Source of the DNA: Limnoperna fortunei
Lineage: Eukaryota; Mollusca; Bivalvia; Mytilida; Modiolidae
Assembly (NCBI GenBank): GCA_944474755.1
Contig: OX104114.1
Coordinates: forward strand, 43,713,070-43,777,069
DNA: 64,000 nucleotides
Reading direction: 5' to 3'
The notes under the pieces were generated by a model, which was given only the letters and a program-made list of their open reading frames with translations, ran no database searches and was not told where the DNA came from. Shown here one piece after another: positions 2,204 through 28,450 of this stretch. The translations under genes and the position numbers were made by a program. Position 1 is the first letter of the stretch. Every line of letters starts with the position of its first letter.

Positions 2204-3556
2204 GTCTCACCTGCGACGAAAGTTGCTGGAGGCAAGACATATGTATGGGAATCCGGCGGCGGGAGCAGCGTAAACGCTTGGACATCTCGCTTCATATATT
2301 TGCAAGCATAAGCCCTAGGTCCATCAAATTTGGTCCAATGGTAGCTTATGGTGAGTACTTGCCAGTCAGTCACCCGACCTTGACCTCAGTTTCACGGTCC
2401 AGCGACTACATTAAAGTTTTTGGATTAAGCCAGTTCCTCTGTAACCATGCATGGTAGGATGATAATATTTGGTATATAGGTTGCTGATGAGAAGTACATG
2501 GCTGTCCGGTAGGTGTCACCTGACCTTGACCTCAATTTTAAGGTCCAACGACTATGTTAAAGTTTTTGGATTACGGCAGCTCCTCAATCCATGCATGGTA
2601 GGATGAAAATATTTGGTATATATGTTGCTGATGAGTAGTACATGGCTGTCTAGCAGGTGTCCCCTGACCTTGATCTCAATTTTACGGTCCAGCGACAACG
2701 TTAGTTTTTGGATAACGGCAGTTCCTCTGTAACCTTGCATGGTAGGCTGATTATATTTGGAATATAGGTTGCTGATAAGAAGTTCATGGCTGTCCGGTAG
2801 GTGTCACTTGACCTTGACCTCAATTTCACGGTCCAGCGACTACGTTAAAGTTTTTGGATTACGGCAGTTTCTCTAACAATGCTTGGTAGGATGATAATAT
2901 TTGGTATATAGGTTGCTGATGAGTAGAACATGGCTGTCTGGCAGGTGTCACCCGACCTTGATCTCAATTTCACGGTCGAGCGACAACGTTAGTTTTTTGA
3001 TAACGGCAGTTCCTCTATAACCTTGCATAGTATGATAATAATATTTGGAATATAGGTTGCTGATGAGTAGTACATGGCTGTCTGAAATGTGTCACCTGAC
3101 CTTCACCTGAATTTCACGGTCCAGCAACTACGTTAAGTTTTTGTATTAGGGAAGTTCCTCTGTAACCATGCATGGTAGGATAACTATACTTGGTATATAG
3201 GTTGCTGATGAGAAGTACATCACTGTCGTGTAGGTGTCAACTGACCTTGTCCTCAATTTCACGGTCAAGCGACTGCGTTAAAGGTTTTGTATTGGGGAAG
3301 TTCCTCTGTAACCATGCATGGTAGGATAACAATATTTTGTATATAGGTTGATGATAAATAGTACATGACTGTCTGGAAGGAGTCACCTTACTTTGACCTC
3401 AATTTCACGCTCCAGCGACTACGTTAAAGTTTTTGGATTAGGTCTGTTTCTTGGTAACCACGCATTTTGTATTTCAAATGATAACAATTTAATGCTATTT
3501 ACGTAATGCTTATGACGAAATTTATCTTCGTTACTGATGCGGAATGCAGGCGAGAC
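2204..3556 (+). mobile_element. Tandem-core hairpin-ended element, family A, copy 1
   Basis: This is one of three copies of the same family in the window (others at 43779-45070 inverted and 61137-62084). It begins with GTCTCACCTGCGACGAAAG, continues through a unique leader, then carries about eight tandem units of roughly 145 bp. Each unit contains the phrases CACGGTCCAGCGACTAC and GTAGGATGATAATATTTGG. It ends with a unique module closing on GCAGGCGAGAC, the inverted copy of the start. Similarity between copies continues about 25 bp further (to CCACACTTGTT near 3583), so the true end may be there. There is no coding capacity. The layout resembles the bivalve pearl-type, Helentron-derived non-autonomous elements. 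Confidence 0.8.
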
Positions 3557-7239: not shown

Positions 7240-7690
7240 ACGGTTATAGAATCTCTGTAATAGTAATGTAGCCTTCGTCTGATGCTATTAATAGTGATGA
7301 TAAACCATCTTTTTCACATAAAATAGCCCCAATTTCTGTGTTCATTTAGAAAACAACACAACCTTTTTTACCATTTAGTTATGATATTAACAATGATGAC
7401 TATCCATTATTTTCACACAAATTAACATCACAACTGTTAAAAAGCATCTGCTCAATTTTTTTGGCCTTTCTTGATGCTGCAAATATTGGAGATGCGCTAT
7501 AGTTGGAATAATTACTAACAATTAAATTGTTCAGTAAAACATCAACTCTGTATTTGTGTCCATTTAATTATACTGTCAACAAAAAATACCTATCCATCAT
7601 TTGTAGAACATGTCCACAATATAATTATGATCTATTTCTGATGTTGCATATATTGGCGATGCGCCGTTTTCATATTTTGTTAACATCAAC
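7240..7690 (-). pseudogene. Decayed ankyrin-repeat tail beyond the stop codon
   Basis: After the stop the 99-bp ankyrin period continues for four to five more units. Reverse-strand phrases such as GGCGCATCGCCAATATATGC and the CVDFLL-type segment remain readable, but the frame shifts a few codons past the stop and further stops follow. The similarity fades near 7240. This is an eroded extension of the neighbouring array: the stop at 7691-7693 falls exactly where intact repeats have K-(R/G/S)-VDVNK. Confidence 0.75.
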
Positions 7691-10600
7691 TTATTTGTTT
7701 ATTAAGAAATCAACACATTCTTTGTGTCCCTTTAATGATGCTATTATCAACGGTGAGTATCCATACTTTGTAATTATATTGACATCTCCTCCAATGTTAC
7801 ATAGCATCTCCAGAATAGTAGTGTGACCTTTCGCTGATGCTGCATGGATTGGTGATGCGCCATCGTTATTGACTTTATTAGCATCAACTCTTTTGGTCAG
7901 TAAGAAATCAACACAGTCTTTATGTCCATTCAATGATGCTTGCCATAACGGTGAGCATCCATCCTCATCGCATAGGTTGACATCCCCGCCACTGTTATAG
8001 AGCATCTCTATAATATTAGTGTGGCCTTTAGCACATGCTGCAAAAATTGGTGATGCCCCATTGTTTGTACATTTATTAATATCAACTCCTTTGCTCAGTA
8101 AGAAATCAACACAGTTTTTGTGTCCATTCAATGATGCTATAAACAATGGTGAGTATCCATCCTTTGTACTTAAATTGACATCTCCTCCAATGTTATACAG
8201 CATCTCCAGAATAGTAGTGTGACCTTTCGCTGATGCTGCATAGATTGGTGATGCGCCATCGCTATTAACTTTATAAGCATCAACTCTTTTGGTCAGTAAG
8301 AAATCAACACAGTCTTTATGTCCATTCAATGATGCTTGCCATAACGGTGAGCATCCATCATCATCGCATAGGTTGACATCCCCTCCACTGTTACATAGCA
8401 TCTCTATAATATTAGTGTGGCCTTTAGCGGATGCTGCACAAATTGGTGATGCCCCATTGTTTGTACATTTATTAATATCAACTCCTTTGCTCAGTAAGAA
8501 ATCAACACAGTCTCTTTGTCCATTCAACGATGCTATAAACAATGGTGAGAATCCATTCTTTAAATACACATTGACATCTCCCCCTCTGTTATAGAGCATC
8601 TCCAGAATAGAAGTGTGACCTTTTTCTGATGCTGCATAGATTGGTGATGCGCCATGTATGTTACATTTATTAACATCAGCTCTTTTGCTCAGTAAGAAAT
8701 CAACACAGTTTTTGTGTCCATTAAATGATGCTAGCAACAATGGTGAGCATCCATTCTTTACACACAAATTGACATCACCTCCACTGTTATAGAGCATTTT
8801 CAGAATAGTAGTGTGACCGTTCTGTGATGCTACATAGATTGGTGATGCGCCATCGTTAGTACATTTATTAACATCAACGCTTTTGCTCAGTAAGAAATCA
8901 ACACAATCTTCGTGTCCATTTAATGATGCTATTATCAACGGTGAGTATCCATACTTTGTACTTAAATTGACATCTCCTCCAAAGTTAAATAGCATCTCCA
9001 GAATAGTAGTGTGACCTTTCGCTGATGCCACATGGATTGGTGATGTGCCTTCGTTATTAACTTTATTAACAGCAACTCTTTTGGTCAGAAAGAAATCAAC
9101 ACATTCTTTATGTCCATTCAATGATGCTTGCCATAACGGTGAGCATCCATCCTCATCGCATAGGTTGACATCCCCGCCACTGTTATAGAGCATCTCTATA
9201 ATATTAGTGTGGCCTTTAGCACATGCTGCAAAAATTGGTGATGCCCCATTGTTTGTACATTTATTTACATCAACACTTTTGCTCAGTAAGAAATCAACAC
9301 AATCGTCGTGTCCATTTAATGATGCTGTCAACAATGGTGCGTGTCCATTTTTATTACACAAATTGACATCTCCTCCACTGTTATAGAGCATCTCTATAAT
9401 ATTAGTGTGACCGTTCTTTGATGCTACATAGATTGGTGATGCTCCATCGTTACTACATTTATTAACATCAACGCTTTTGCTCAGTAAGAAATCAACACAG
9501 TCCTTGTGTCCATTTAGTGATGCTACCAACAATGGCGAGAATCCATTCTTCAAATACAAATTGACATCTGCTCCACATTTATAGAGCATTTCCATGATAT
9601 TAGAGTGGCCGTTTATTGATGCTAAATAGATTGGTGATTCGCCATTGTTAGTACATTTATTAACATCAACTCCTTTGCCCAGTAAGAAATCAACACAGTT
9701 TTTTTGTCCGGTTAAGGATGCCATCGACAAGGGTGAGTATCCACCCTTTGCACACAAATTGACATCTCCTCCACTTTTATGAAGCATCTCTAGAATATGA
9801 ATGTGACCTTTTCCAGCAACTACAAACAGTGATGATGCACCATTGACGTCACATTCATTAACATTAGCTTCTTTGTTCAGTAAAAAGTCAACACAGTCTT
9901 TGTGTCCATTAAATGATGCTGCCCACAATGGTGAGCGTCCATCGTTATTACACTTGTTAATATTTCCACCCTTTAGAAACAAAATTTTAAGAATATCGAT
10001 ATATCCGTTTTGTGAGGACACGTATGTGGGCCTGTTACCATATTGATCTGCCTTATTCACATTATGCTCAATGCATTCTAAAACGTTAATTAGTTTTGAC
10101 CGATACAGTTTAAATTTCATTTGAAAGGCTGAGAATACTTCATGGACTTTACTTTCAATTATGTCTTGCTTTATTCGTTCGAAGAAAATATTTTCCATAT
10201 CTGTTGGAATTATAATTTTGCCATATGCAACTTTTTCTCTGATGGACTGTAATAAAGCGCGATCACAAAGTAAGCGACTGTCAGCAAATTGTACAATACA
10301 CTCCATCATAGTTGAAGATACATGAGTACAATAAATATCAAACATATAGTCATGAATACTTTTGAATCCGGTGTCCGTTTTAGAAAAAAACGATCCTACC
10401 ATTGATTCAAACTGTTTTGAAATTGTAATTCTTGGAGTGTTTATTTCACAGGAGAACAACACGGCTTTAAATAGTTTATTTACTTGGACATTTAATCGGG
10501 ATGTAAATATATCAAAAGGCACACAATCATTATACATAACACATAAAGCAATACATGCATACTTAGTCTTGTCTGGTTTCTTTTTTAACTCGGATAATTC

Positions 10601-11241
10601 AGTTTCAATGTAAATCTTAGGCTGTTCAAAGAACACAGTTCCTTTATCTGCGTGATCTTTGAACAATAAACAAAGTAAGGGAAAACAATCGGATTTCTTT
10701 ACAGTATCATCACTGAGGCCTGCTATTACTTCCTCTGATAAATATTTTCTACTAATCATACGCTTTTCAGTAACAGACAATTGGTGGCTGCCAGACAAAT
10801 CACACACATTGACTTTATCAAGAGATAAATGTTTAAAGAACAAATCATTATAAATTTGCAATCTACATGTGAAAATGCACTTTGATGAAGAAGCCTTAAA
10901 AATTTCATTAATTTTTTCTTCATTTCGTTCCCATTCTTCAATCTCATTATAAGAAAAATTATACTTTCCAAAAAAGTCATCAATATAGAAAACTTGTCGC
11001 GTTTTTTTAGAACAGTACTTCACCATATCTGATGCTGTTGTTAAAGGTATTATGTCATATCCCTTTTCTTTCATGGATAACAGTACATGTTGAGAAGTGA
11101 ACGATTTTCCGCAACCGGGGGATCCTGTAATTATGACAACGTTATCTTTATTGATTATCTCTAAAATAGCTTTATAGGCATGTGTTTCCACAAATCGTTC
11201 ATGTCTGGGTATCCATCGGTTGATCATACTCACAATCTGTT
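7691..11241 (-). CDS. Exon 5: nSTAND3 NTPase and ankyrin array
   Basis: A TTTGTATTGCAG acceptor precedes the exon. Its first two bases complete a GAA codon begun in exon 4, giving ...NIR-E-QIVSMINRW..., the usual run into an nSTAND3 domain. The frame is also open upstream to a stop at 11267-11269 but has no ATG before 11227, so a single-exon gene starting at 11227 would lack HEPN. The phase match to exon 4 makes the spliced form far more likely. The ankyrin part (about 10050 to 7691) alternates two repeat types: one with GHT-I-EML-GGDVNLC and one with GHKDCVDFLLSK-VDVNKC. Confidence 0.9.
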
Positions 11242-14200
11242 CTGCAATACAAAGGATCGCATGGTATCAACAATGTAAATAGAAGGTAAATAAACAAGCT
11301 ACAAAAGATACTATTTCAATTGAGAGAGCAAGAAACTGTGATCATTTGATCAACATTACGGTTAAAAATTTGTCAATTTATTGTGGCATGGATTTTCAAA
11401 CCGAGCAATGATATAATTACACATTTTAATACTGTCATATTTTTGCTTACACAGCGACATTTAAAACCAGACAGCAGGACCTTGACATACTACATAATTA
11501 TATTATCATGTTTATGGTATCATTCATGCGGCTTTAGATTTGTTTACGCGTTACTTTTTGCGTTATGTTATTATATTACAGCAGAACAATTTTCTGTTGA
11601 AATTCAACGAAAACCATGAGAAATCTTTATTTACTGTCTACAAATATCAAATTCTAACAGTGTTGGGTTAATCTGTATTACCACCTTTATTTCTATTGCT
11701 CAGAAATCAAATAGATTGATATATAATATCGTTGTAGCAATACTATATTTTAAAAAAATAATTGCTTTGATTGCTGTAAAGTAAATTTGTCATGCTTTCT
11801 ATTATATAAAAAAAATTACTTCGATTACTGTCTGATTATGACGTGTTTATTAAAACAAATGACATCGTCAAATCTAGTACATATGTACTATCCTCTAGAT
11901 TCACAGCGGATTTTGGCGAGTATTAAATTTCTTATTCTGATTTCTTACAGGTTGGGTTAAATAAGTCTCTATTCTTATGTTGAGAATGCAACTAATATTA
12001 GTTAATAATCTTTCGTTAATCCTACATAACTTGGTCAAATTTTTAATTTTTTAATCTCTTGACATTTTATACACTTAAAACTTGTATTCATAACAGATCG
12101 CGTAACATCTTCGAAAAAACAGGTGGAATAAAATTTTTGTCTTAAAATCTTTAAACTCAAATTATATTTCAATTAAAACATCAATTAAAATTAAATAAAT
12201 AAAAAATAAAAAATAAATATAGCAATTATTAAGAAAAAATACAAACAAGAGAAAAAGAAGTAACTTTCCTGTAATGCACATATCTGCATAGATCTTGTCA
12301 CTGTACCTACGGGCCCAATTTCCAAATTGATAATGTCATAAAAATATCAAGTATATATAATTTACAAACCACGACGAAGGGCGTTTCTTATAATCAAGAC
12401 TGATCAGTGATTCACAAGCTAAACATATTAGAAGCTCACATAAGATTTTGAAGAGCTTTTACATCCAAAATTCCATAAAAGTAATTACTAATCCACCTAA
12501 GGCCATTTACACACTGAGAATATAGAAAGCTTTTCTTTCGAAAAAATAACGCCGCAATGACGTGATGTGCGTGGGCCGACTTTAAGAATCAATAGGCCAA
12601 AACAGCGAAGCTTAAAACAGGGCTGATTGCTGTAAGATGTTTCATAGTTCCTGCTCTCTGAATTTAGCAAATAAAGTTAAATCATTTGCTAATATTTTCT
12701 GTTGAAATTAAAAAAAAACGTAATCCCTTTACTGAAGTATTGGCTAATAAAAAAGCTCTTAGAATTTAATACTAGCTGGTAAAATGATAGTATAGGAAAG
12801 AAAGATTATAGGGTAAAATACTAGCTAAATAGTACGTGAGAATGTTGCAGTGAGAAACACTCCGTTGTTAAAAGTTGCCTTTAAACTAAATATGAAATCA
12901 ACTAATTTTTCTTTCAGTTCAATTTACTATCTACTGAATTACTTATTAACAAGACGATGTTACGATTGGTAAAGAAGATTGTTTATTCTAAAATAACTGA
13001 ACAGAAAAAGGTTTTTGAAGATTTATGTATCATTCCACCAGGAACATAAAACGTAAATATTAAGCATACTAACAAACTAAATCTGTTTCACTACAAACTT
13101 ATGCCAAAACTCACTAAGACGGTGCACAAGGACATAAAAATTTAAAACATTAATCGTAATTTTTAAACGAGTAATTATTGTTATAGACATGGTACTGTAA
13201 ACCAATAAAATTTCACGTGATATAAACTTTCGCGGATTTCGCGAGGAGGTAACAAACGCGAAAGTTTATATCCGCGAAAAGGTTTGGGAAAATGAATGAT
13301 GAGGAATGGCGACACCACTAACGTCGTGTAAAATACCAAATGTGTGTGTTAACCCTTATTTAGAATTACTAAACTACGATTTCATAATGACAACTTCCGG
13401 TTGATAAAACAGTTATCTTTGTTAGGTTTTAATTAAAATCTGATTATTTGTCTTTTATCGTCCTGTTATTGACATCTGTTTGGCACTTGAAACGACGAAT
13501 TAATTATTTAATTATGTCAGGTGTTAAAAGATCAAACGACTTATTAGCCGTTATGCAAACAGCAATCTCCCTGGTAATTAACAACTATGTACACCTACAG
13601 GCATGACAGGCCAAAAAAGTAAAACGGTTCATTAAATTGTCGACTTAAAAATGATTCTATTCAATGTGTTTATTATGCAAACACGTGTTTAGATCTTTCG
13701 TTTTTATTTGTTGTACAAATTAAATATATTTAGTAAACTCAACTAAACTACATGTACTTGAGTTTATGTTCACGTGAATCAGTCAGCTATAAAAATCGAT
13801 CGACAATAAAAAACAAAAGATATCAGGACGACAACTCAAATATTTATTATTTATTGTGTGCTCATTTTCTATACAAAGATCTGTAGATCCGCGAATATTT
13901 ATTTTTTATGATATCAATTTCGCGAAAGTTTGTATTCGCGAATCAGTCCATCGAATACAAACCGCGAAAGTTTGCTCACGCGAATATTAATTGGTTTACA
14001 GTATTTCATATCAGTAAAGTGAGACTTATGAACGTTTTAAAAATCTCTGTGGACTATTCGTAAAGGCATGACGCAAATTATAGTTGTGTTACAGCATGCT
14101 AGCAATGTCATTTGAGACAATGTTTTAAACACCCGTTCAAAATTAAATTGATTTAAACCAATTTAAGCAACTGTATTTGTTCATTCTACATCAAACAGTT

Positions 14201-17200
14201 TATATATTGATCATTTTAGAGATTTTACCAAAGTAAACTGGCATTGGCAACATTTACTTTTAGAAATCGGGTATTTTAAGATTTCAATTTAAATCAGTTA
14301 ATACTTAATACTAATTTATGAAATCGTTTGAGTTTAAGGAAAAGAAAATCTTGTATTGGAAAGAAGGCAAAACAGAGGTGTGTGTTATTTATGGATATTG
14401 CAGTACTCGGTATCTAAATTAAACAAATAAAGGCTTTAATTTGTCACGGACGTGCGTTGTGATTTATATATTGATATATTTGATACAAACGTGATATTCT
14501 ACTAAAAGGAGCACGTGAAATCGTTTAAGGAAAAATCATCATTTACTAGAAAGAAGGAGTGGGGTTGTTATTTATGGATATTGCAGTACTCAGTATCTAA
14601 CTTATACAACGAGGCTGATGCAGGGCTAAATTGGTTGTGCGTTGTGACTTTCCGATATATTTGATACAAACGTGATATCCTACGACAAAAACTGGCAAAT
14701 AAATGACCCAGTGATTTATTTATGTTTAATGAGACGCTGTCACATGGCTCAAAGTTCTATGTTTGTTTGTTGACTATTTGCATTCTTTACAACATAAACT
14801 ATAATCATACAAAACACCTATCTTTCTACCATATAATGATAAACTTCAACAGATTGAAGATAATGTCACGTAAGGAGTTGCATACTAACAAGGATTTAGA
14901 TCACATATTTATAATGGATGTGGTATTTAAAATTATAGAAAACATGAGGAATTTATTTATTGTTTTTTTTATTTTTGAATGGCTAGCATGAAAGAGTTCA
15001 CCAAAGGGGCAGCTTTGATGACGTAGCCAGGGAGAGTGTTCCATTCTCTAATTGTTCTGGGGAAAAATGAATATTTTCTGTAGTCTGTTTTACATAGAGG
15101 GATTTGATAGCTCTGTGTGTTTGTATGCGTTGTTTAAGTGGTGTTGATCTGTTTGTATGTTGGATTGCTACCTCTTAGTGTGCTATTTTATAGAACATTG
15201 TTAGTCAGGAGTTTGTTTTCAAATTTTGGACAGTGTGTTAAAACAAACATTACTGACGGATTTTAAAGAAAATAGTACAGTCGCTTCGACCAAATATTGA
15301 TATTACTAATTGCTAGAACCTAAAAATCAGACGGACAAAATTTTTTTGCCACCTTTAGATACAGATCAGTGGCGGATCCAGGGGGGGGGAGGGCGTAGCG
15401 GCGTACGCCCCCCTTTAAAAAAAAATAAAAGGAAAAATAGAGAAAAGGAGGGTAAAAACCAACGCCAAAGGCAAAAATGTAATCCCCGCTCGTCCTCGCC
15501 ATAAATTAATGCATTAACGGTACTAATTAGTTTATTATGATATCTCAGTTGTATATACTGTACCAAATAAAGGTTACTGAACACTATAAAAACCTTGTTC
15601 GTGGCCTTCCTATTCCGATATCCCCTTTTTACGCCCCCCTTTCGAAAATCCTGTATCCGCCCCTGCAGATGTAATTGGCCATTTAAATGACACTATTAAC
15701 TGTGACAATACGATAGATGAGATTATAAATGCAACAAATATAACAAAATAAAGTAGGCAGTTAATGAATATGTAAATTCAACATGTGGTAAATTTGAGAA
15801 CTTATTTTATCTTATAATAAAGACCGTTATACCTAAAATTGAGGACCATTGGGAAAGTTTCACCTTTTCACAAAAATAGATGAGATTAATCGGATACTAA
15901 AAAATTCCAATAATAACAATTTAAAGCTGATTAGGGAAGCTTTCTACGGCAGTTTTATGCGAAAGGTTAAACGATTTTTTCAGATGATTTTCTGTTACTT
16001 AATGAATGCCGGTGTAGATTTCGTATACCGTAATGCAGTTTGTATGATTTTGATTAACACCTTTCTAATATTCTGATACATAGGAAGAAGGAGATGTTCT
16101 GTGTCTTTGTACATATCAAAAAAGCTTTTTATAATTGTGACGGACTCCATATAAAATGTTATTAAATAATACTAAAGGAAGATTGTTTGCCATAATTTCT
16201 ACTATCCATAAAAATATTAAGTCCTGTGTATCCTAAAATAATAAAGCTGCATTTATTTCCCTGTGAAACTTGTGTCCAAGAGAGAAAGTTTGTCACCACT
16301 TCTTATTTATCTTGATGATTTAAAACTATTTAAGAATTTCTGTAATAGATCTCGATACCAAACTACGAATGATTCATTTTGGACACGTACAAGTGAAAAA
16401 GGTTTTAAACTCTATGCAGTCTCGAATAAGTCGCTGTTTAATTTACCTAGCCTTATTTCTCTTTGTTTAAAGCATTTAAAAGCACTACTCAATGAACGTA
16501 TAAATTGTTGTTGGATTTAATTAGTTTTTGGTTAAAGCATATAAAAACAAACTTCAATTGACGTGGCTTGTAATATATTTACAATTATTAAACTTTTAAT
16601 ACAACTTTTTCTTCAAGATCAATTGTAACAAACATAGTTTGCAAATACTTAAAATAGAACCAAAGTTCATAATAATTGATTATTTAAAGAAGAAATAAGT
16701 TTGGGATACATTAAGCAAGTTTAGAACTTTATACTGCAGGCTGCAGATCAAATATTGACGGTGAAAAAAGAATGTTTCACATTGACAAAATATCTTTAAA
16801 ATGTTAATGTTATCAAATTGAAAAAACTCATGACTGTAACAAATAAAAACGCTAAACTACGGAAAATGTGTGCTTCATTTTGGATATAAACAAAATTTAT
16901 AATCCCTTGACTCTGTCCGGTTATTATTTGTTAAAAACAAGATCGAATAATCGTACCATTGTCTTTTAGGGTACAAAGTTAGTTCCATTGAGAATCCCAA
17001 ACGGTGTGTTTCACTGTATATGTTATTTGCTACACTAAGAGTACTAAGACTAAACTCTGCCATTATTACGACAAATCACATAACTAAAATCGGATTTGTG
17101 ACAAAAGTAAAATTCGGCCTACTAAAAAGGGAAAAAGTGATGTTGAATGTTTTGATATATATGTATTTATGCTTGTATACCAATGTCAACAAAGGTTTAT

Positions 17201-20200
17201 CAGAAATAAAAAAAATCTAGATAAATTGTATATAATTATAGGGATTACAGAAAATGCTCAAACCAAAAGAAGGATTAGAGGTTGCATTGTTCAATAAACA
17301 ATCGAACTGATTTTAAATAAAATACCATAAAAAAATATACAACGTTTTGTATTATCAACGCCTGGCAGATCAAGCACAGTTTATTAATGCAAATTCCCAG
17401 CTAATTAAAAAGTAGAATTATTTGTTTTTTTTAAATAAATGTTGTAGTAGATTGTACAGTATTTTCGTACTCCATAATGTCAAATCACCACTATTTTGTT
17501 TTGAGCACCACCGATTAGTCTTGATAACCTTTTGTGTTTAAAAACGTTCCCTAATAATTAAGTGTGCATTGTGAGCATGTTCACAAAGGGATACCCCACC
17601 GCTTCGCTTTTTAGTCCATTTATCTCCCCTTAAATATATCCGAGGTCAATAAAAATCCTTCTTGCACATCTACATATAAAGTACTTCCTTTATGTTAAGT
17701 TATGTCATCAAGCTGTTTGGGAGGAGTTGCGCTTACAAGGGATATGGACAGACGGACACACAGACAGACAGGCAGGGTTGTTTCAAGAAACATTTCTTCC
17801 AAAATTTTGGTTAAATACAATAACTCCTATAAGGTGCTATCAGACAATTTCTGAAAATTAAATGGTTTTTAGGCATTGTCCTTTAGGATACTTTAAAAAT
17901 TTGCAGTTTTACTCTACTAATAGGTGTGTTATAGACTAATTTATAATTCAAAAACTGTTCATTTGTCCAAATTCATAATGAAGGGCAATAACTCCTATAA
18001 AGAGTCATCTTGCAATTCTGGACTAAGCAATCATTTGTAGGGCTTCTAATGCTGATCATTGCTGCAATTTACAGTTTTAATCTAGCTTCTATAGTTTTCA
18101 AGTTACAGGACAAAAATGGAAAATTTCATAACAAAATTGTCATTTAAGGGCAATAACCCCTATAAGGAGTCATCTGGCAATTTCATACCAATTAAGTGAA
18201 TTGAAGGGCTTTTATTGGTGATCATTTTTGCAATTTATTTATTATTTCACTCTAGCTGTAATCGTTTTTAAGTTACAGGACAAAAACGGAAAATTTCTTA
18301 AAAAATTACCATTTAAGGGAAATAACTCATATAAGGAGTCATCTGACAATTTCAGACCAATCCAGTGAATTGTAGGGCTTTTTTTGCTGATCATTTTTGC
18401 CATTTACAGTTTCACTCTACCTCGTATAGTTTTCAAGTTATATTGTAAATACCAAAAATTTTGTCAAAAATCGTCAATAAAGGGCAATAACTCCTACAAG
18501 GAGCTAATACACAACTTCACACTAATAGCAACTATTGTAGACCTTAACGTGCTGATCAATTTGAAGTAACGGTTTTCTCTATAGCTATTATAATTTTTGA
18601 GATAATGATCAAAAACCTGTGTTGACCCCCACGTTCTATTTTTAGTAACAGCGGCCATATTTGTCTGTTGATCAACACCCTGGATACAAACTTGAAACTA
18701 GGAACCCTAAGGATGATTGTGGCCAAGTTTGAAAAAAATTGGCCCAGTGGTTTCAGAGGAGATGATTTTTGAAAAATGTTTACGACGGACGACGGACGAT
18801 AGACGACGGACGACGGAAGCCAAGTGATAGCAAAAGCTCACATGGACCTTCGGTCAGGTGAGCTAAAAACCGCACTCCAGTGGCTTTTACTATAAACTAC
18901 TTTTTTAAACATTAAGAATATACATCTAAACCGTAACTTTATTTTTTTTCCTCTCAACGGCTAAGTGCAATTCACTTTTTAATATGTTTTACACCGAACT
19001 ATTTTACCTCTGATATTTTGTGGTAATGGATCTTTCATCATTGCCTCAAGGCTTTGCAACCTTTCTGTTAGTGCAGCTTTTTCCATAAAGAAGTTTCTGT
19101 ATACATCCATAAAGGATGGATCTAGATTACAATTCAATAAATTGGAACTCTCTAGCTCATATCGTTTTCCTCCAATTCTGCTCACAGCCTGTAATATTCA
19201 GTTGCAATAGATTTATTCTTCATTTACTACAACGTGTGTATAATATTATTAACAAACAGTTTTTAAACACAGAGGCATTCATAACTATTTCATATAAGTG
19301 CTCTAGATTTGAGATATGGAATATATAGTCCACCCTCCACATTATTTGCGTATGGTTAATCACAGTAATAATATTATTATAATACTCAAGCAACTGATAT
19401 AATGCATCAGATTAACAATTAAAAGTCTGTATGCAATTAGTGCAAATTAAGGGACGTCCTATAATTGTCTATAGTCTTGACAAAAACACCGTCATATATT
19501 GTTTGTGTGTTAAACTATACATCATTTCTCGTCCAAAAATGTTTTTAGAAGTTTTAAGGTTTTAGGAGTCCTCACTATATTATATATTCGTACATTCCCT
19601 GTTCAAATGACCCAATAAAGGTGACAGATGAGCTCACACGCACTTATCTGTACTCGTGTAATCAAATCAAAACACCTGAAACTAGATCGTTGTCTGTTGT
19701 TTCTGGTGTTTTGATTGGATAAAGTTGTTGGTTAATGGAAGTAATATGTACTTCCAAAAGCGGTTGGAAAAGGCCCTGTGATCTTTAACTTGTATTATAA
19801 TTTTTCACGAGCGGAGCTCAGCAATCTGAGCTTAAAGTTTCTATCACTTGTGTAAAATCTACCGGTCTTTCCTTAAAACGTATGTAAGAACCTATTAATC
19901 TCCACATTGTCACGAAATTTGTTTGCATGACTGACAGCGAAGTCAGTAGTGTTTGAAACGGGAATCAATACTATTAAAGCACATTTTTTTTGAGTGAAAT
20001 AGTTTTCATTAAAAAATGTTACGAATGGCGAAAGAACAAAACAACTTTCTTACAAAAAATATAGTAATACATAATTCATTTTATCTAAGAATGTAGTAAT
20101 TTATTAGATAAACTTTTCTCGCGATGGATAAAGCTGAAGGTAGATGAAAGGTATATACCCTTCTAATTGTAATATTCATTATCATAATAAAACAATGTGG

Positions 20201-23200
20201 TCTCAATTAAAACGTGAAGCTTGTTGTTTAACTTAAACTCTATCAATTCATATGTGGTCTTTTAAATGTGTGTCATCAATTATAGGTAGGAAAGACTGAA
20301 CTAATGTAAGATTATATAAATTTGAAATGGTTAAATTGACAAGCGGATTGAATAGATTTCCAAGATGGTTCTGGAAAACATATATTTGAACTGATAGTTC
20401 AAAACGAGACTTAACAGAACAGTAAAAAATTCCATTTACGCTAAGATAAAAGAAACAAAGACTAAGATAAAACTATTGCTTCAGACGAACGGGAAGTTTA
20501 CAACAGGGAAATAGAAGTCATCACGCTTGTCGAAAAGTTGTGTATGTAATTTTTTTCTTGATTCGACATTTGTCAAATTTTCTCTTCCGGAAACAGTTTA
20601 AAGCAGTCAAACAAGAAATCAAGAAATGCCAAGAAAAGCAAATGAACCTGGATCGAGAAACGATGCCATGAAAGCCTGAAGAAAAATAAATGCAAAAAAA
20701 CTCAACTCGTGACAGACCAGAACAAAACAATGACGCAAGATAATTTGAAGAGACAGAAATAGTAGTGTTATACAAACGTACAATCACACAGCCTCAATGG
20801 ATTCAAACAAAATGAATATCGCTCCGGTAACCTACACCGACAGCTTTCCCATCCGTTGATAAATGTTAGAACCAGCTATGAAGTCATAAAAAAGACGATG
20901 AAAGTACCAGAATTAGACGCAGAAAATTAACCAACTTGTCGTTTGCTGACGACATTCATGCCGTTGCATAAAGAGAAAAAGCTCGCTCACTAGATAATAT
21001 AGCTGCTGCATACAGCATGGAAATAAATGTCGAAACGACTAAACCTATGACCAAAAACACCAATACCATCAATAGTGAAATAATAATAAATTCTCAGAAA
21101 CTGGAAATATTTCTTGTAGCCATTTTAACATATGAACCTGAAATACTAAGATAACAACACGAACATAAAGATAAAAAACATAATCCATCAAGCCATTATA
21201 AAGACCTACTGACCACATAAAAAACGAAAATGGTATTCACATGTCACACAATCATCAGGACACGGTTAGACATTCGTGCAAGGCACATGGGCGGACGGAT
21301 GGATGGATGGGTGGGTGGGTGAGTGGGTGGGTAGGTAGTTAAATAGGTGGTGATGTAGGTAAAGAAATAGACAGACAGACAAAATAGATAGTTAAAAAAA
21401 AGAAAGATAGATTTTCATATTATCTAACACCTAACCGACCTCAAAATAAGTTCTAATAATTTGATATAAATTCCAGCCATTACACAAAAATACTGTATTA
21501 GATCATAATTCCAATATAATTAGCATATGTATTTTTCCTGTGTTTGGATTGGTTGCTTATATTACCAGTAACAAACTATTACATTCCACTTTTTACAACT
21601 GTGCAAAATCCAATTCAGAATTTATCAATGTGTAAAACACTTACAAACTTGACATAAAATAGCTTGGACTGCATTGTTTCATTCCATAATACAAATATCG
21701 AACATAAAATCAAAAACATTTATTTCTGTAAAATAATAGTTTGATTGGAGGCATGTCAGACTACAACTATAAAACAGTTCTTTTTGACATATCTCGATGC
21801 GTTCCAATTACACGGATTTTTTTTTTTAGGTTTTGCAGTCAAACAAATTTTTGTGCCTTCAGGAACATCAACATCAACATTGTCGACATCAACAACCTGT
21901 CGAAAAATTCAAAGTTAGTGTAATCCAGTTCATGTGTACAATCTTCGACGTCTATAAATTTTTTCTTTTGAAACCACGCAAGTAACATATGCCTTCAGAT
22001 CACTAAAACACGATGGGTGTCCTTAAGGATGCAGAATGACTTGTTTTTACCTGTCCTTCAAATTATGAGTCATTATCTCACCAATGATTACTGTGTTCGA
22101 CTATTAAGCTACTCAAAGAAGGGTTTATTGTACCTAGGTTGATATTATCTCTTCAGAAGTTCTATTGCCGTCACTATGACTTGATTAATATAGGAAATCC
22201 ACCACCCTAATACGATCGATCATTTTCTCTGAGTCATCTGTAGTCTTTCTTATTCCTGAATGTGACATGCCCTAGAGGTGACATTGACTAACTCAACGGG
22301 TGTCTAATTAGAGGCAGGCGTCGAGTTAGTCATTATCACCTCTAGGGCATATCACAGTAATTCGAACCCAATATAAAACCCATGGCTTCACTCAGGACGA
22401 GTAAGCCATGGTTTTTATATTGGGTTCGAATTACTTACTTTCTGTTTTTGTGATATTGTCTTTGTTTCCTTTTGTATATGTTTGTCTAAAACCGGATTTG
22501 TATTTGTACTTTTACCTTAATCTCTTGTTTTCGGTAGGTTCCCTGTCATCTTTTAACATGCTATTGCTCTTACTGCTCTTATATTTTATCATTGATACAA
22601 AATCCTTAAAAGAACCCCAAGCAAAGTTGACAACTCAAACGGATTTTTGTCCAATTACTCGTACATAGTAAGTACAGTTAAGAAAATAAATATAAATAAA
22701 AGTTATCATTTAATAATTAAAGTTTAGGCCGCAATTATAATGCTGAAAAAAATATGGACGTTAAGGAATGGAAGAATTTAAATAAGAGTTGTTAAAAAAA
22801 AATTAGACATTTGATTAAATATGGTTTGAACTTGTGACAGCTTTACATAGATTTTAATTTTAACATGACGTTCTCTTCAAATTGTTTAGTAAGAAATGAT
22901 CGATTGCCTGTTTAGTTGTTTGGCTAAATAGTCTGATAAATCATGTGAACCAAAAATACCGATTGTTAGCATTTACATTTTATGTTTACTGTGGATATAA
23001 TTATTTTTGCTGTCTTTAAGCTTGGTTGTTTGTTTAAACATAGATTTACGCTACTTCTAGAATTTTTGCAGATATATAATAGGGTTCAGTTTTTATTTGG
23101 AGAGGAAGCCGGAGTACCCGTATAGAATGTAATACATTGTTTGCAATTTCAATGGGGAAATGATGCATTGCGAAAGAAAATTTAGCCAATTGACCTCTAT

Positions 23201-26200
23201 AAAGAAACCAAGTGGTTACACAGCAAACTGTTACACACATTACACCAATATTCATCTAGACTGATGTTATTGTTCGTCATTGAATATAAAGGACTGATAA
23301 ATTCAACGTAAGTTTTGAGTAAAATTTTAAAAAGAAAATTATATGACTGCATAATTCGTAGGAATTTACTGAACTAAGTTCATCGCAAAGAAATATAAAA
23401 TATTCTCTCAATTTCATATTATAGACTATTTATATTTATAACTCACCTTACTGATAGTTTCCCAGCAAATTGCAAATTCGAAATTGTCCAATTTTCTGTC
23501 ATTTTCTAAACAGTGTGAAATGTAGTTTCTGTAATATTTAATTCGGGCCAAATCTGCACCAGGACTATCATCACTGGGTTGTGGTAATTCGTCGTAATTG
23601 CAATATTTTGGAGCTATTGCTGACAGATGCCGGAAAAAAATTATCATAAGTGTTACGTCAAAATTAAATGACGTGATCTTGGCACCTTAAAGAAGATAAA
23701 GAAGATATGACCACTATGGAATATTTCATTGTCGCATTACAGAACGAAATGTATATAAACTGCAGGAACCTAATCAAACACATAAAAAATATCCCACCAT
23801 CCTCGCGTCTGTGTAAACATACATTGTTTTATCCATTTTGGGCAATTTTAAAAGACTTGTTCGCAGTGTATCTGTATAACTTGGTACAAATAAAAGAAAT
23901 TTAACTATTCACCTGGAAAAATGTTGAGAACACCCTAGTTTTTTCAAGGCATCTATATTCAAACACCTTTGGACTAATATTGAACTGCCATTCGTTTTTA
24001 ATTTATATAGCAAACAAAAATATGCATTGTGACACAATAAACATTATTTTAACCAAAAAAAATCATTTTTTTATTTACATATCCTTTCATCAAAATATGG
24101 ACGGTCTTTGTTCTTTCACGTAGGCTTTAAAAAGTATTGTCACCGAAAGCTCCCTAACTGTTCTTAATTGTCCAATCACACTTAAAAACGTCAATTATAA
24201 ACACCAAATAGATAATTAGCCGTCGAGGTTTAATATCGGGTATATCCGTTAGCATGAATGACAGCTAAAACCCTGCGTCTCATACTGCCAGTAAGGCGTC
24301 TTATTTGTTAAAGAGATATATGTCCGGTGTAATTGAGTTTCTAAATGTGGTAAGTTCTGTGAAAGAGGTTTCAGGCTTGTAATCGCCTACCCAATTGATC
24401 CCATAGATGCTCTATTTGGGTTTTGATCAGGACTTCTTGCAGGCCACGGAAGAGTGGTCAGAGCTTCGTTCTCGAGATATGCCCTTACTGCCCATGAAAC
24501 GAGGAGGCCTATTGTTGTCATCCATAACAACAGGTCTTGACTCCAACGGGTGGTTTTCGAGGCACACCTTCAGGTGTAAGCACGTCCCGGGTGTACTTTC
24601 GCCATAAAAGCTGCCATTGATTGTTACAAGATCCAGTTTGAAATCATGTGAGATACAGCTCTACAATATAACTGAGCCCTCACCAAAAGGCATTGTTCCA
24701 ATTATGTTTTGTTCTGCACCAGGCCAACCTGTCCCTGCGATGGCGATCGATCATCAAGCATTGGGAGTTTAATGACTCTCCTGGACCTCAATCCTACAGC
24801 TTTAAGTCCATTTCGTACTCTTTTGGCTGACAGATTACGACCAGGTAACCATTGTTGCTTGAGACAGGTGCTTCCTGCAAACTGTGTTCGCCTAACCAAT
24901 CTACCAAGTCTCCTATCTTTACGTTGGGTTGTCACAGATGGTCGACCAGATCCGGAACTGTCTTTAACATCTTGCATGGCAGCGTGTTTTCTGACCAAAC
25001 GACTAATGACTGTATAATGATATCCAAGCTGACGTTCTATTGCCTTGTAAATCATAAAAGTGGAATGCATGCCGATGATTTGCCATCTCTGTGCTTCTGA
25101 TATCCGCCTCCTTGCCATGCTTACTTTAAATGATTTGGCAATAAGAAATTCGGGATTTAAATACCGATACGTACGAAAAATAGTGCACTTTGGACGGGAT
25201 GAAGGAAGCAAGCTTCAAATGACATGGCCGTAGCATCCATTGAGGCAAGTTAGGCAGTTGCCTCACTAAAAATTATACCAAGTATGGTTTTGACATACGG
25301 ACAAATTTTGTTTACTATAAAAATAAAATATAAAAATCATGTTTTTTTTACTTTCTATAAAACTGTATATCGCTATAACTAATACGGACGTCGGTATCTT
25401 TAAAACAAACAACGGTCTTAATATGGAATTCTAATATGACGAGCTTCACAGGCTTTGTGACCACAACTGTGGTCAAAAAAATGATTTATGTATGACAACA
25501 CGCGACGAGGAGGGAGTGTTGTGAAAGCTGTTCCAATTACAAAACTGTAACTCCCACCGGAAATCTTTTGCGTATAAGATATTAATTTTTAAAAAGCCCC
25601 CAGACCCCCTGCGGATTGCCTCACTAAAAATTGGACCTTAGCTACGGGCATGGATGAACAGAAAACCGCGCATGATTAAAATTTAACACCTGAACGCTCA
25701 CATACCTTTAATTGTACATTAAAGATTTGACTGACCAAAATCATTCAAATTAAACTTTATTTACAATAAACGAAAATCAACAATATTCGGGGGTGCTTAA
25801 CTTTTTTTCAGGTGTATATTACTGTCTGATTAATACGTCTTTGTTGCTAAAAACCACGGTTACAAGCTAGTCTTATGTACTATGTATGTCTCTAGAACTC
25901 AAAATACGAAGTTATACACGTGACAGTTCACAGGTCCGCCTAGCACTTGTATTAACAGTACAACCTTTTCTGTAAAACAGAATATGCAAAATGCTTTTTA
26001 AACCACATATTAACGACTTCATTTAAATATTGCCGAAGAGTCATATTAACAGCACCTTTTTCATATTGTACAATAAAAACAATAAATATACATATTATTT
26101 AAGCATACCAGATGGTTGAATGAGATTCCACTGCGATTTTGTAAGAACTCTCTGATTATGCAATTCCTTTAACATGTTCAGGTTCTTTTGTATAATTCTA

Positions 26201-28369
26201 TTTAGTTCACTTGGAGGAAATTTCTGGTCAAATAGACATCTCATTGCTTGCGGAGCAATCTTCAGAACAAGATGGCAAAATCTCAAGAAGTTGGACTCTG
26301 CATCGGTTAGGCATGAAAATCTAAAAAAGTAGACATGGGTTCCAATTATATTGACACTAATGATTATTCCTTAAATTTGTAAATTATCTTTGTGAATAAA
26401 GCTTGGGTATCATTAATGGCTGATGTTGATATGAAATGAAATCATGCCTCAAGGAAAATGTTCACTTTAAAATTAAGCCTGTAGATATATTAAATATTTC
26501 ATTAAACACTGCCATTTTTATTCAATGAATATTCACGAATGACAAAAGAAGCATTAAAGTAATATCAATACATCTTCTTATCATTTTATGAATATGCATT
26601 GAATAAAGACGCCAGTGGTCGTCGAAACGTTAGCCATACATGTGTTTATATGGTATAGTTTTTTTTTATTACTCTAATTAATTTATTTAACTTGGATAAT
26701 TAAATATAGTACCTAAACAACTATTGCGGGGCAGAACCTGCAAATTAAGTACGAATTTTACTTGTTATAAATAAAATTCTGTATAATTATTTCAAAATAC
26801 CACTAGTTACTTATTGCAAAACAGTTATTTATATAAGCACATTGTTAACATTTATTAGAATTCGTACAGAAGTCGTCTGGATCACAATATCTGATACTTT
26901 GCTTTATTTTCAAGAACTTAAAAATTGTGTGTGCAATCATTGTCAAGTAAACTGTCATCAAGGATACCAAGGTTAATATAATTTACTATGCCAGACGCGC
27001 GTTTCATTAAATTAATACTAATCATAGGAACTCAGACCCAAACAATTTTAAAAATCTAAATGATTAATATTTTTAAGAGATTGTTTCATCAAAATTCCAA
27101 AACATTATACCAAATCCGGCTACGGCTATCTTCAACCTTTAAAATAGAACAACCTTCAAATTAAAATAATTTAGAAATTTCATGACAGCAAATTTAGAAA
27201 ATGACTATATCATTGAAAGAGTCAATGATATTTCTGTCAACACCGAAGTGTGACTATTGGGCTACTGATATCCTCGCGGACTAACAGTCCACCAGCATAA
27301 GAATCGATCTAAGTAACAGTTATAGTCATAACAATATATCAGTGCCAGAGCGCTAACGATGTAAAGATCTTGAAACATGAGATGTCAATAGGTATCGTAT
27401 ATATAGCTTCTGAGATAATTTTCTTAAATCAATAATTTTCAAAATCTTAATTTTGTCATATTTTTAAGCCAAAATTAACAAAAAGTAAATAGATTAGGAT
27501 TGAAATGTACTTGCTACTAACAAATGCGAAAAAGACCACGGCTAAAGGCAAAAAGAGGGTCCAGTTTATATTGTCTTACTTGTGGGCCTGAAAATATTTT
27601 CGAGTCAATTACATCCGGTGGTCAAAAATATTTTAAATTGTTACAAATATAAATATAAATGCTATTGTACCATAATGCATAAGAGTCATCATGCTTGGTA
27701 AGCGAAATTAAAAACTTTCATTCGAAATACGACAAATACTATAAGTATTTAAATATGGTCTTTTCGGCCTCGCATAAACCAATTAACTTCTAATTTTGGT
27801 TAGTTGTTCTCAAGTTCTTTTATTTAAATTTTACAAACATAGATTAACCAATTTTTAAAAACATCATGCTATGCAATACTAACTAAAACCTACGTATTAA
27901 AACAATCTGTTTGGCTGGAAGTTGTCTGAAAATCTATCAGGCATAATGAATCTGTTTTCTCGTGTGTGTCCTCAGTACAAATTGTTTGATCAATCTCAGT
28001 GAGGTTATGAGAAGCATTACAGAACACTTCTTGTTGTACATACATCTGAGCCTCACCCAATGATTTCTGCTGTATATCGCACGCCTGATCCAGTGATTTT
28101 CCTGAATCCATCCGATTTTTACTTTCTAAATTTTGTCGTTGTGATTGTTCGTCTGAATTCATCTCAAATGTTATCTCTTGTGAATGTTGTCCCACATCCG
28201 TTTCTGGTTTGTTACAGGACAGGTTATCAATTTCAGTCTTTTTTCTTTTAGCAGATACCTCCGTTTGACTTTCAGAGTCATTTTTCCGCTTTGAAACAGC
28301 CGATAGTATAATCGTCTCACCTACTTCGTCCTTTAATGCTTTAGGTTGTGTATCAGTGTCTGGGTCCAT
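7691..28369 (-). CDS. HEPN-nSTAND3-ankyrin protein (NLR-like sensor), five exons, predicted 1552 aa
   Basis: Joined exons: 28369-27894, 26320-26109, 23685-23447, 19188-19008, 11241-7691. They sum to 4659 bases (1553 codons), and all four junctions agree in phase with GT/AG ends (donors GTAGGT, GTATGC, GTGAGT, GTAAAA). Layout: residues 1-159 polar and disordered, with a bipartite basic signal (27-29 and 41-44); 160 to about 340 DZIP3-like HEPN with R282-N-Y-I-S-H287, matching the R-x4-H RNase motif; about 375-765 nSTAND3 NTPase with Walker A GSPGCGKS (409-416), Walker B YIDDFFG (455-461), a sensor stretch CIFTCRLQIYND (491-502) and an IHDYMFD motif near 665; 768-1552 about 23 ankyrin repeats. 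In known STAND proteins repeats sense a ligand, the NTPase switches, and the N-terminal domain acts. HEPN domains are often RNases. A role in innate defence is inference. Confidence 0.85.
7700..10050 (-). repeat. 99-bp ankyrin-coding tandem array with 198- and 396-bp higher-order units
   Basis: Two ankyrin types alternate, so the basic unit is a 198-bp pair. A four-repeat (396-bp) block recurs: the phrase TATGTCCATTCAATGATGC starts at 7921, 8317 and 9109, offsets of 396 and 792 bp. The stretch 7921-8077 is identical over 157 bases to 9109-9265, 1188 bp (twelve repeats) away, while intervening units differ. Confidence 0.9.
13195..14001. mobile_element. TA-flanked foldback/MITE with CTGTAAACCAAT ends
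   Basis: CTGTAAACCAAT at 13195-13206 is matched by its inverted copy at 13990-14001, and TA dinucleotides flank both ends, as for Tc1/mariner-type target duplications. Next to each end are palindromic phrases of the type CGCGAAAGTTTATAT / ATATAAACTTTCGCG, so each terminus can fold into a hairpin. No coding sequence is seen; the core 13300-13860 is ordinary AT-rich DNA. Confidence 0.8.
14328..14690. repeat. Diverged direct repeat of about 180 bp
   Basis: Two adjacent segments share, in order, GTTT-AAGGAAAA, TGTTATTTATGGATATTGCA, GTACTC-GTATCTAA, TGCGTTGTGA and ATATATTTGATACAAACGTG. Units start near 14328 and 14520. This is an old tandem duplication of unknown origin. Confidence 0.7.
14975..15200 (-). 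pseudogene. LINE reverse-transcriptase C-terminal relic
   Basis: On the minus strand the sequence reads Y-SFFPRTIREWNTLPGYV, preceded by QSYQIPLCKTDYRK and followed by a SFMLAIQ-type end. This is the characteristic C-terminal signature of a common invertebrate LINE ORF2. An in-frame stop lies upstream and no RT core remains, so it is a 5'-truncated dead copy. Confidence 0.7.
15310..15740 (+). pseudogene. Coding-like relic split by a MITE
   Basis: The frame reading EPKNQTDKIFLPPLDTD up to 15366 continues after the MITE as VIGHLNDTINCDNTIDEII and stops at a TAA near 15750. The target duplication CAGAT keeps the frame. The peptide style (polar, paired helices) resembles the linker between endonuclease and RT in LINEs, but I cannot prove the family. 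Confidence 0.45.
15367..15665. mobile_element. hAT-type MITE with CAGTGGCGGATCCAGG ends
   Basis: The left end CAGTGGCGGATCCAGG pairs with the right end CTGTATCCGCCCCTG. CAG-GGCGGATCCAGG is a common hAT-type terminus. CAGAT directly precedes and follows the element, a 5-bp target duplication. There is no coding capacity; the G-rich and C-rich runs inside belong to the element. Confidence 0.8.
17575..18868 (+). mobile_element. Tandem-core hairpin-ended element, family B, copy 1, with a fragment of another element at its left
   Basis: From about 17800 there are five units of roughly 166 bp, each with GGCAATAACTCCTATAAGGAGTCATC, a TTTTCAAGTTACAGGACAAAAA phrase and TGCTGATCATT. Then comes a GACGGACGACGG run and a terminal hairpin at 18833-18863 (AGCTCACATGGACC, loop TTC, GGTCAGGTGAGCT), followed by AAAAA. 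The same right-hand module ends the element at 33096-34577. The part 17575-17790, ending in GGACAGACGGACACACAGAC, looks like the tail of a different tandem-core family, as at 37085-37890. Confidence 0.75.
19008..19188 (-). CDS. Exon 4: end of the HEPN domain and helical linker
   Basis: The acceptor ATTACAG and donor GAG-GTAAAAT bound 60 codons plus one base. The peptide starts AVSRIGGKRYELE, matching the RLGG-type strand that follows the RNase motif in DZIP3-like HEPN domains, and continues as a charged helix toward NIR. It joins exon 3 in phase 0 and exon 5 in phase 1. Confidence 0.85.
20800..21300 (+). pseudogene. LINE reverse-transcriptase relic with FADD box
   Basis: Across frameshifts one reads LSFADDIHAVA, then SLDNIAAAYSMEINVETTK, INSEIIINSQKLE and finally KKRKWYSHVTQSSGHG. 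This is the order of RT palm, thumb and the RKW-HV tail of a familiar invertebrate LINE class. Stops and shifts are frequent, so it is long dead. It lies in intron 3 of the HEPN gene, in the opposite orientation. Confidence 0.7.
21291..21412. repeat. GGAT/GGGT/AGAC microsatellite tract
   Basis: Imperfect GGAT and GGGT repeats followed by GTAG and AGAC runs, directly after the LINE relic. This is a common place for simple-sequence growth. Confidence 0.8.
22261..22435. repeat. Two abutting long hairpins (twin foldback)
   Basis: Hairpin 1 has 34-bp arms (22261-22294 and 22323-22356) with three mismatches and a 28-base loop. Hairpin 2 has 33-bp arms (22356-22388 and 22403-22435) with one mismatch, and its loop adds an inner ACTC/GAGT stem. 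The two share a boundary base. It lies in intron 3 of the HEPN gene. Confidence 0.9.
23447..23685 (-). CDS. Exon 3: HEPN core with R-x4-H motif
   Basis: The acceptor TTCTTTAAG and donor AAG-GTGAGT bound two bases plus 79 codons. The peptide reads FDVTLMIIFFRHL, then LPQPSDDSPGADLARIKYYRN, then YISH, the signature of DZIP3-like HEPN domains. The RNase motif RNYISH is encoded at 23530-23513. The split Gly codon from exon 2 (G plus GT) restores the family's PSG run. Confidence 0.9.
24230..25118 (-). pseudogene. Broken Tc1/mariner transposase
   Basis: The start ATG is at 25118. The N-terminal helix-turn-helix region is clear (MARRRISEAQRWQIIGMHS, then YHYTVISRLVRKH and a GRPSVTTQR linker), followed by RRLGRLVRRT and RSRRVIKLPMLDDR. 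The frame breaks at 24702. Later catalytic pieces lie in shifted frames: VVMDDN near 24520, and an NPK-SI-GINWVGD stretch where NPIEHLWDQLGRR is usual. It cannot encode an active enzyme. Confidence 0.85.
25223..25652. mobile_element. Insertion with CATGGCCGTAGC inverted ends inside the mariner relic
   Basis: CATGGCCGTAGC at the left and the inverted form GCTACGGGCATG at the right bound about 430 bp. Inside, GCCTCACTAAAAATT occurs near both ends in direct orientation. It lies between the transposase start and the right mariner terminus, so it is younger than the mariner. The superfamily is unresolved. Confidence 0.6.
26109..26320 (-). CDS. Exon 2: start of the DZIP3-like HEPN domain
   Basis: The acceptor CTTTTTTAG and donor CTG-GTATGC bound one base, 70 codons and one base. 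The peptide FSCLTDAESNFLRFCHLVL, then FDQKFPPSEL, then RVLTKSQWNLIQPS is the classic N-terminal half of DZIP3-like HEPN domains. The first base completes an ACA codon begun by exon 1. Confidence 0.88.
26990..27370 (+). mobile_element. Relic of a common molluscan repeat (ATGCCAGACGCGCGTTTC type)
   Basis: The phrases ATGCCAGACGCGCGTTTC, AAAATTCCAAAACATTATACC and GACAGCAAATTTAGA, and then GAAGTGTGACTATTGGGCTAC with ATATCCTCGCGGA, follow one another as in an interspersed repeat I associate with bivalve sequences. The class (SINE or Penelope tail) is not certain. It lies in intron 1. Confidence 0.4.
27894..28369 (-). CDS. Exon 1: disordered N-terminus with bipartite basic signal
   Basis: The first ATG has a good context (ACAATGG). 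The exon gives 158 codons plus two bases and ends at AATAC-GTAGGT; reading through would meet a stop at once. It is rich in Ser, Thr, Gln, Asp and Glu. KRK (27-29) and KRKK (41-44), 11 residues apart, form a bipartite nuclear localisation pattern. I recognise no folded domain. Confidence 0.75.
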
Positions 28370-28415
28370 TGTTGCAATTTCACTTGTTTCAAGACTTTCT
28401 TTTTCAAAACAAAAA

Positions 28416-28450
28416 CTAATGAGGCACAAGTTTTTAGTTGTCTTTTTATA
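28416..28450 (-). promoter_or_regulatory. Core promoter of the HEPN gene: TATA box and initiator
   Basis: In gene direction TATAAAAAG (28450-28442) is followed about 30 bases later by TCATTAG (28422-28416), which fits an initiator. This places transcription start near 28420, about 50 bases before the ATG at 28369. TATA-initiator spacing is as expected for Pol II, but both motifs are short. Confidence 0.5.

Follow-up and report, generated by a model that had tools for sequence, protein, structure and literature searches.

The window analysed here, the whole 64,000-nucleotide stretch of Limnoperna fortunei contig OX104114.1 (assembly GCA_944474755.1, positions 43,713,070 to 43,777,069), carries on its minus strand a gene of five exons whose introns run from GT to AG and which join in phases 2, 1, 0 and 1 to a coding sequence of 4659 nt specifying 1552 amino acids and a stop codon (Table 1). 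The predicted protein joins a HEPN domain, an nSTAND3 NTPase and an ankyrin array on one chain. Five dispersed exons joining in phase to 1552 residues had been proposed by an original prediction made from the sequence without database searches; its splice sites, phases and length were all reproduced, and the start, which it had set at 28420, was moved to the first ATG of exon 1 at 28369, position 28420 lying 51 bp upstream.

The exons were checked using tblastn (E ≤ 0.01) with the 50 relatives obtained by protein search as queries against the whole window. Exon 5 was matched by 48 of these relatives, exon 3 by 47 (best E 1e-16), exon 2 by 36 (1e-15) and exon 4 by three (2e-5), and besides exons 2-5 only the decayed repeats adjoining the stop codon were matched. 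Because relatives match them, exons 2-4 were recovered independently of the earlier model. A search of the window with the encoded protein (E ≤ 1) found no second copy of the gene. The possibility that exon 5 is a gene by itself was considered and rejected, as 45 of the 50 matches carry HEPN and nSTAND3 on a single chain and the HEPN profile match spans exon joins. The relative of highest identity (P0006, 42%) is without HEPN, and because its source contig is so short (3044 bases, with room for the big exon only) it provides no evidence for or against exon 5 alone.

The join of exon 1 to exon 2 is the weaker part of the gene model, and real transcripts could carry another first exon in place of exon 1. 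No more than 12 residues precede the HEPN start in each of the 48 aligned relatives. The open run of exon 1 comprises 194 codons, compared with a median of 135, a 95% value of 171 and a maximum of 198 for the longest open run in order-3 Markov simulations of 64 kb (n=100). Its codon score of 0.193 exceeds that of all 933 intron windows (maximum 0.028), this score being noisy when exons are short (exon 2 gets -0.134 when read in its own frame). Inside the exon 2/exon 3 intron lies a Tc1/mariner-like transposase relic (24252-25214, minus strand), identified from an open reading frame (ORF) at 24702-25211 that matches HTH_Tnp_Tc3_2 below the cut-off (E 1.3e-4).

Domains of the predicted protein

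The HEPN_DZIP3 profile (PF18738) was matched by hmmscan at residues 195-338 with 100.4 bits (E 1e-28, cut-off 27.0), over profile positions 1-143 of 144 and across exons 2-4 including the 2/3 and 3/4 joins. Scored singly, exon 3 reached 5.9e-16, exon 2 0.023 and exon 4 gave no match; since the full match runs through three exons, the joins complete the domain. The DZIP3-like HEPN domain with an RNYISH motif that had been predicted is recovered above the cut-off, with RNYISH at residues 282-287 and within the Rx4-6H spacing. R282, N283 and H287 are kept in all 45 aligned HEPN-bearing relatives (P0049 and P0050 left out). When a coral row was added (46 rows), arginine and asparagine stayed invariant and histidine was present in at least 90%, the motif of the coral protein being RNTVYGH, with x5 spacing. 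Helices in the HEPN region were seen in the predicted model of one relative, P0014.

An RNase effector is the best reading of this putative catalytic domain. The HEPN domain of the same gene could instead bind RNA or serve for dimerisation and pass a signal on via partners, such as degradation or death adaptors, without cleaving RNA itself. Such a role would suit the presence in some relatives of a CARD, an adaptor with no enzyme activity, in the same place. It would also suit the 2013 HEPN survey, in which the DZIP3 motif is called "mostly conserved" and RING, CARD and DEATH domains are among the fusions listed (PMC3710099). We consider it rather unlikely, as the arginine and histidine are kept in 45 of 45 relatives while the mean majority share across the domain is 0.71, and as 194 of 202 HEPN_DZIP3 proteins of the pearl oyster retain Rx4-6H (PMC9646362).

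The nSTAND3 profile (PF20720) was matched by hmmscan at residues 386-537 with 120.1 bits (E 9e-35, cut-off 27.2) over profile positions 1-153 of 155, and the predicted motifs GSPGCGKS and DDFFG were both located within it. The P-loop K415 and the Walker B D457 are invariant among the 48 relatives, and the second Walker B aspartate is found in 44, the other four having N. The modelled core (predicted local distance difference test score, pLDDT, 89.8) adopts a STAND-like predicted fold: by Foldseek it is closest to bacterial Avs5, SAMD9, CED-4 and NOD2, and the top eight matches consist of Avs5, SAMD9, CED-4, NOD2 or NRC4 chains only. In PADLOC, the nSTAND3 region matched the candidate system PDC-S73 at 3.1e-20 and mad8 at 4.1e-05, and the HEPN domain gave no match. 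Among solved structures the sole match by sequence was to a heavy chain at E 0.54, and in Rfam there was none at the gathering threshold.

The C-terminal region was assigned to the ankyrin families Ank_2 (3e-203) and Ank (2e-137) by profile scan. Its units are 33 residues long; the 23 repeats counted originally correspond to the full units, and a 24th is ended by the stop codon after 26 residues. Blocks of the array are up to 94% identical, which suggests recent unequal exchange. For the 23 full units, the ratio of non-synonymous to synonymous substitution rates (dN/dS) was 0.41 for one repeat type and 0.80 for the other when all positions were taken together, with 0.99 and 0.81 at presumed contact positions and 0.28 and 0.72 elsewhere. 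Contact positions are thus clearly freer in one repeat type only, these positions being presumed from designed ankyrin proteins and the repeat pairs not being independent.

Table 1. Exons, domains and motifs of the gene, with window coordinates
Feature	Position	Strand	Remarks
Exon 1	27894..28369	-	Start codon and 158-residue N-terminus; basic clusters KRK and KRKK, nuclear-signal-like by eye
Exon 2	26109..26320	-	HEPN_DZIP3 begins
Exon 3	23447..23685	-	HEPN core, contains RNYISH
Exon 4	19008..19188	-	HEPN end and linker
Exon 5	7691..11241	-	nSTAND3, helical/winged-helix-domain-like region, ankyrin array, stop
R282-x4-H287 (RNYISH), putative RNase motif	23513..23530	-	Residues 282-287; R282 and H287 kept in relatives
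nSTAND3 NTPase domain	10739..11194	-	Residues 386-537
Walker A GSPGCGKS	11102..11125	-	Residues 409-416
Walker B DDFFG	10967..10981	-	Residues 457-461
H666 in IHD motif	10352..10354	-	H in 47/48 relatives; putative winged-helix role
Ankyrin array	7694..10048	-	24 units of two alternating types, 396-bp (4-unit) higher-order repeat (repeat analysis)
Decayed ankyrin repeats with stops	7243..7690	-	Beyond stop codon; longer matches 65-70% identical

Elsewhere in the window, a probable non-LTR retrotransposon was identified at 55129-57815 on the plus strand (one ORF matching reverse transcriptase at E 9e-42 and another matching RNase H at E 2.3e-08). A 144-146 bp satellite occurs at 2369-3465, 43867-44900 and 61307-61993, three stretches judged alike by eye; a second, distinct satellite of 161 bp lies at 40676-41474.

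Relatives and proposed function

The protein search returned 50 matches, 48 of them with nSTAND3; 45 combine HEPN, nSTAND3 and ankyrin repeats, the latter group including 43 named Mytilus proteins (counts by eye). A match from the coral Oculina and one more have HEPN without nSTAND3. Ten nSTAND3-ankyrin sequences, used as a profile query, yielded 123 matches. By our own count, the best 120 of these include 63 with nSTAND3, of which 29 carry HEPN and two CARD; Crassostrea angulata and C. virginica are represented among the best 120, and ankyrin proteins lacking nSTAND3, fungal ones among them, occur in the lower rows. Seven proteins were selected for a domain scan, which assigned a CARD-nSTAND3-ankyrin architecture to P0055 (mussel) and P0056 (oyster). 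An additional effector, a Bcl-2 domain, was considered for P0058 and P0085 and rejected, since the matches (28.0 and 31.5, cut-off 31.4) lie inside the ankyrin array and no separate stretch passes. In a FastTree phylogeny of 49 rows the window protein pairs with P0006 (support 1.00). In this unrooted tree the pair joins Mytilus P0046/P0028/P0029 at a support of only 0.53, too low to place the pair inside or outside Mytilus diversity. Judged by these sequence matches, the gene is a member of a deep, many-membered bivalve family.

According to the 2013 survey, the DZIP3/hRUL138 HEPN family includes ankyrin and NACHT fusions and is expanded in Nematostella, oyster and Capsaspora; the survey also suggests that NACHT and DEATH fusions in another HEPN family, CXorf38, serve in defence, and it lists ankyrin fusions in the KEN family (PMC3710099). 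The pearl oyster has more than 50 HEPN-NACHT proteins, which may act against RNA from viruses and transposons (PMC9646362), and HEPN-NACHT expansions are reported in anthozoans (PMC8260672). Crassostrea TRADD-N proteins combine with HEPN, STAND NTPases or ankyrins (PMC8195603), one NACHT-LRR protein of Aplysia has a DZIP3-like HEPN (PMC9334734), and HEPN_DZIP3 is among the expanded families of the Manila clam (PMC11592408). No description of HEPN-nSTAND3-ankyrin proteins in molluscs was found in searches limited to open-licence papers in PMC.

Given that effector (HEPN), STAND switch and repeat sensor share one chain, a ligand-triggered RNase is the best reading, and we put the probability at about 0.6 that this animal gene codes for an NLR-like protein uniting sensor and effector in a single polypeptide, with a HEPN RNase that would be triggered by a ligand. 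The ankyrin array would keep the protein inactive or bind the ligand, and binding would lead to nucleotide exchange by the nSTAND3 NTPase and to oligomerisation. HEPN RNases work as dimers, and STAND oligomerisation would therefore be the activating step, bringing the HEPN domains into contact and allowing paired R-x4-H sites to form the RNase. Cutting of host or invader RNA might then block virus growth or kill the cell. Transcription, oligomerisation, RNase activity, the ligand and the immune role are what we infer here. That some relatives have CARD at the position of HEPN speaks for a receptor of modular build.

A regulator with housekeeping or stress functions, acting in RNA decay or as a scaffold rather than as an immune sensor, would be compatible with ankyrin arrays being general binding modules. 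We hold it to be improbable in view of the many divergent Mytilus members, the immune and apoptotic switches that are the best Foldseek matches, the exchange of HEPN and CARD, and the HEPN and NACHT clusters of the pearl oyster, which vary in copy number (PMC9646362).

Several observations weigh against the ligand-triggered RNase sensor or the gene model beneath it. Exon 1 was matched by none of the 50 relatives in the tblastn search, and with residues 1-330 as query no relative of exon 1 was found, the three proteins returned covering 48-51%, as the HEPN part alone would. The window protein deviates at 10 of the 71 positions conserved in at least 95% of relatives, among them S286, adjoining H287, which is A in 43 of 45 relatives, and F460, adjoining Walker B, which is C in 46 of 48. 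AAA+ proteins follow close behind in Foldseek (from E 3.3e-06), where TM-scores by query are low (0.26-0.45 among the best 50 rows), and in VIA-align the best score among AAA+ proteasome and Clp ATPases, 12.7, is level with that of NLRC4, 12.8, so that this ranking fails to single out STAND proteins. No positive selection for ligand binding was detected by dN/dS among the ankyrin repeats. Finally, dead repeats reaching about 7240 lie behind the truncated array, which was probably once longer and has since been cut. These repeats would also fit a decaying gene copy, its array shortened by the stop and the gene perhaps silent. That reading is very improbable, given that the five exons are open through 1552 codons with canonical splice sites, that all 29 positions unchanged in relatives (at least 40 rows) are kept, and that array lengths and ends vary among relatives too (rough motif count), P0001 likewise ending inside a repeat.

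The original prediction of an NLR-like, RNA-cleaving sensor accordingly stands in part. The HEPN-nSTAND3-ankyrin architecture, the intact catalytic and NTPase residues and the STAND-like predicted core favour it; the protein is NLR-like and not a strict NLR, having neither NACHT nor leucine-rich repeats (LRR). A scan of residues 1-800 at E ≤ 1 matched 22 families, the NACHT family PF05729 not being among them, and the NTPase is nSTAND3; no LRR family was among the best 25 of 33 families, down to E 0.16, the repeats being ankyrins. If the RNase prediction is true, the gene would offer a directly testable animal STAND receptor acting as its own executioner. A wider, tentative and more doubtful proposal is that bivalves might run an Avs-style immunity, in which nSTAND3-ankyrin receptors with their own HEPN RNase or CARD on one chain would go straight from sensing to the destruction of RNA with no signalling cascade in between, their arrays being resized by 4-repeat unequal exchange so as to shift specificity.

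Comparison with known systems

The gene is less exceptional than was first thought, as single-chain HEPN and nSTAND3 relatives are already in public databases, some full-length ones annotated as "DZIP3-like HEPN domain-containing protein". It is a further member of a family already catalogued in mussels and oysters and no new kind of system, and its architecture and the hypothesis attached to it match what has been annotated or proposed for bivalve relatives, including HEPN-NACHT proteins (PMC9646362). The closest counterparts are the Mytilus HEPN_DZIP3-nSTAND3-ankyrin proteins (such as P0001 of M. coruscus and P0014 of M. trossulus), which have the same three domains in the same order with the same catalytic and NTPase residues. 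The window protein is 23-35% identical to the named Mytilus proteins, and whereas the Mytilus relatives begin at HEPN, it has 158 additional N-terminal residues. P0055 (M. galloprovincialis) and P0056 (Crassostrea virginica) have nSTAND3 and the ankyrin array in common with it but carry CARD in the place of HEPN, P0055 with an additional SAM-like domain in front.

RNase L, like the window protein, has ankyrin repeats and a HEPN-superfamily RNase; it is without a STAND NTPase, has a kinase-like domain and shows the opposite domain order. The bivalve and cnidarian HEPN_DZIP3-NACHT NLR-like proteins share the HEPN Pfam family and a STAND-class NTPase, but have NACHT instead of nSTAND3 and LRR, TPR or WD40 instead of ankyrins (PMC9646362, PMC8260672); those of the pearl oyster likewise have an N-terminal HEPN with Rx4-6H and C-terminal repeats (PMC9646362). 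Bacterial Avs5 (SIR2-nSTAND3-repeats), the nSTAND3 of which resembles SAMD9, has nSTAND3 and the tripartite effector-NTPase-repeat plan in common with the window protein, of which it is the best Foldseek match, and differs in its SIR2 effector, its other repeats and its being a prokaryotic antiphage system (PMC12931631). The gene presents a clean, open-frame example of an animal counterpart of the Avs5 plan, a single chain uniting effector, nSTAND3 NTPase and repeat sensor.
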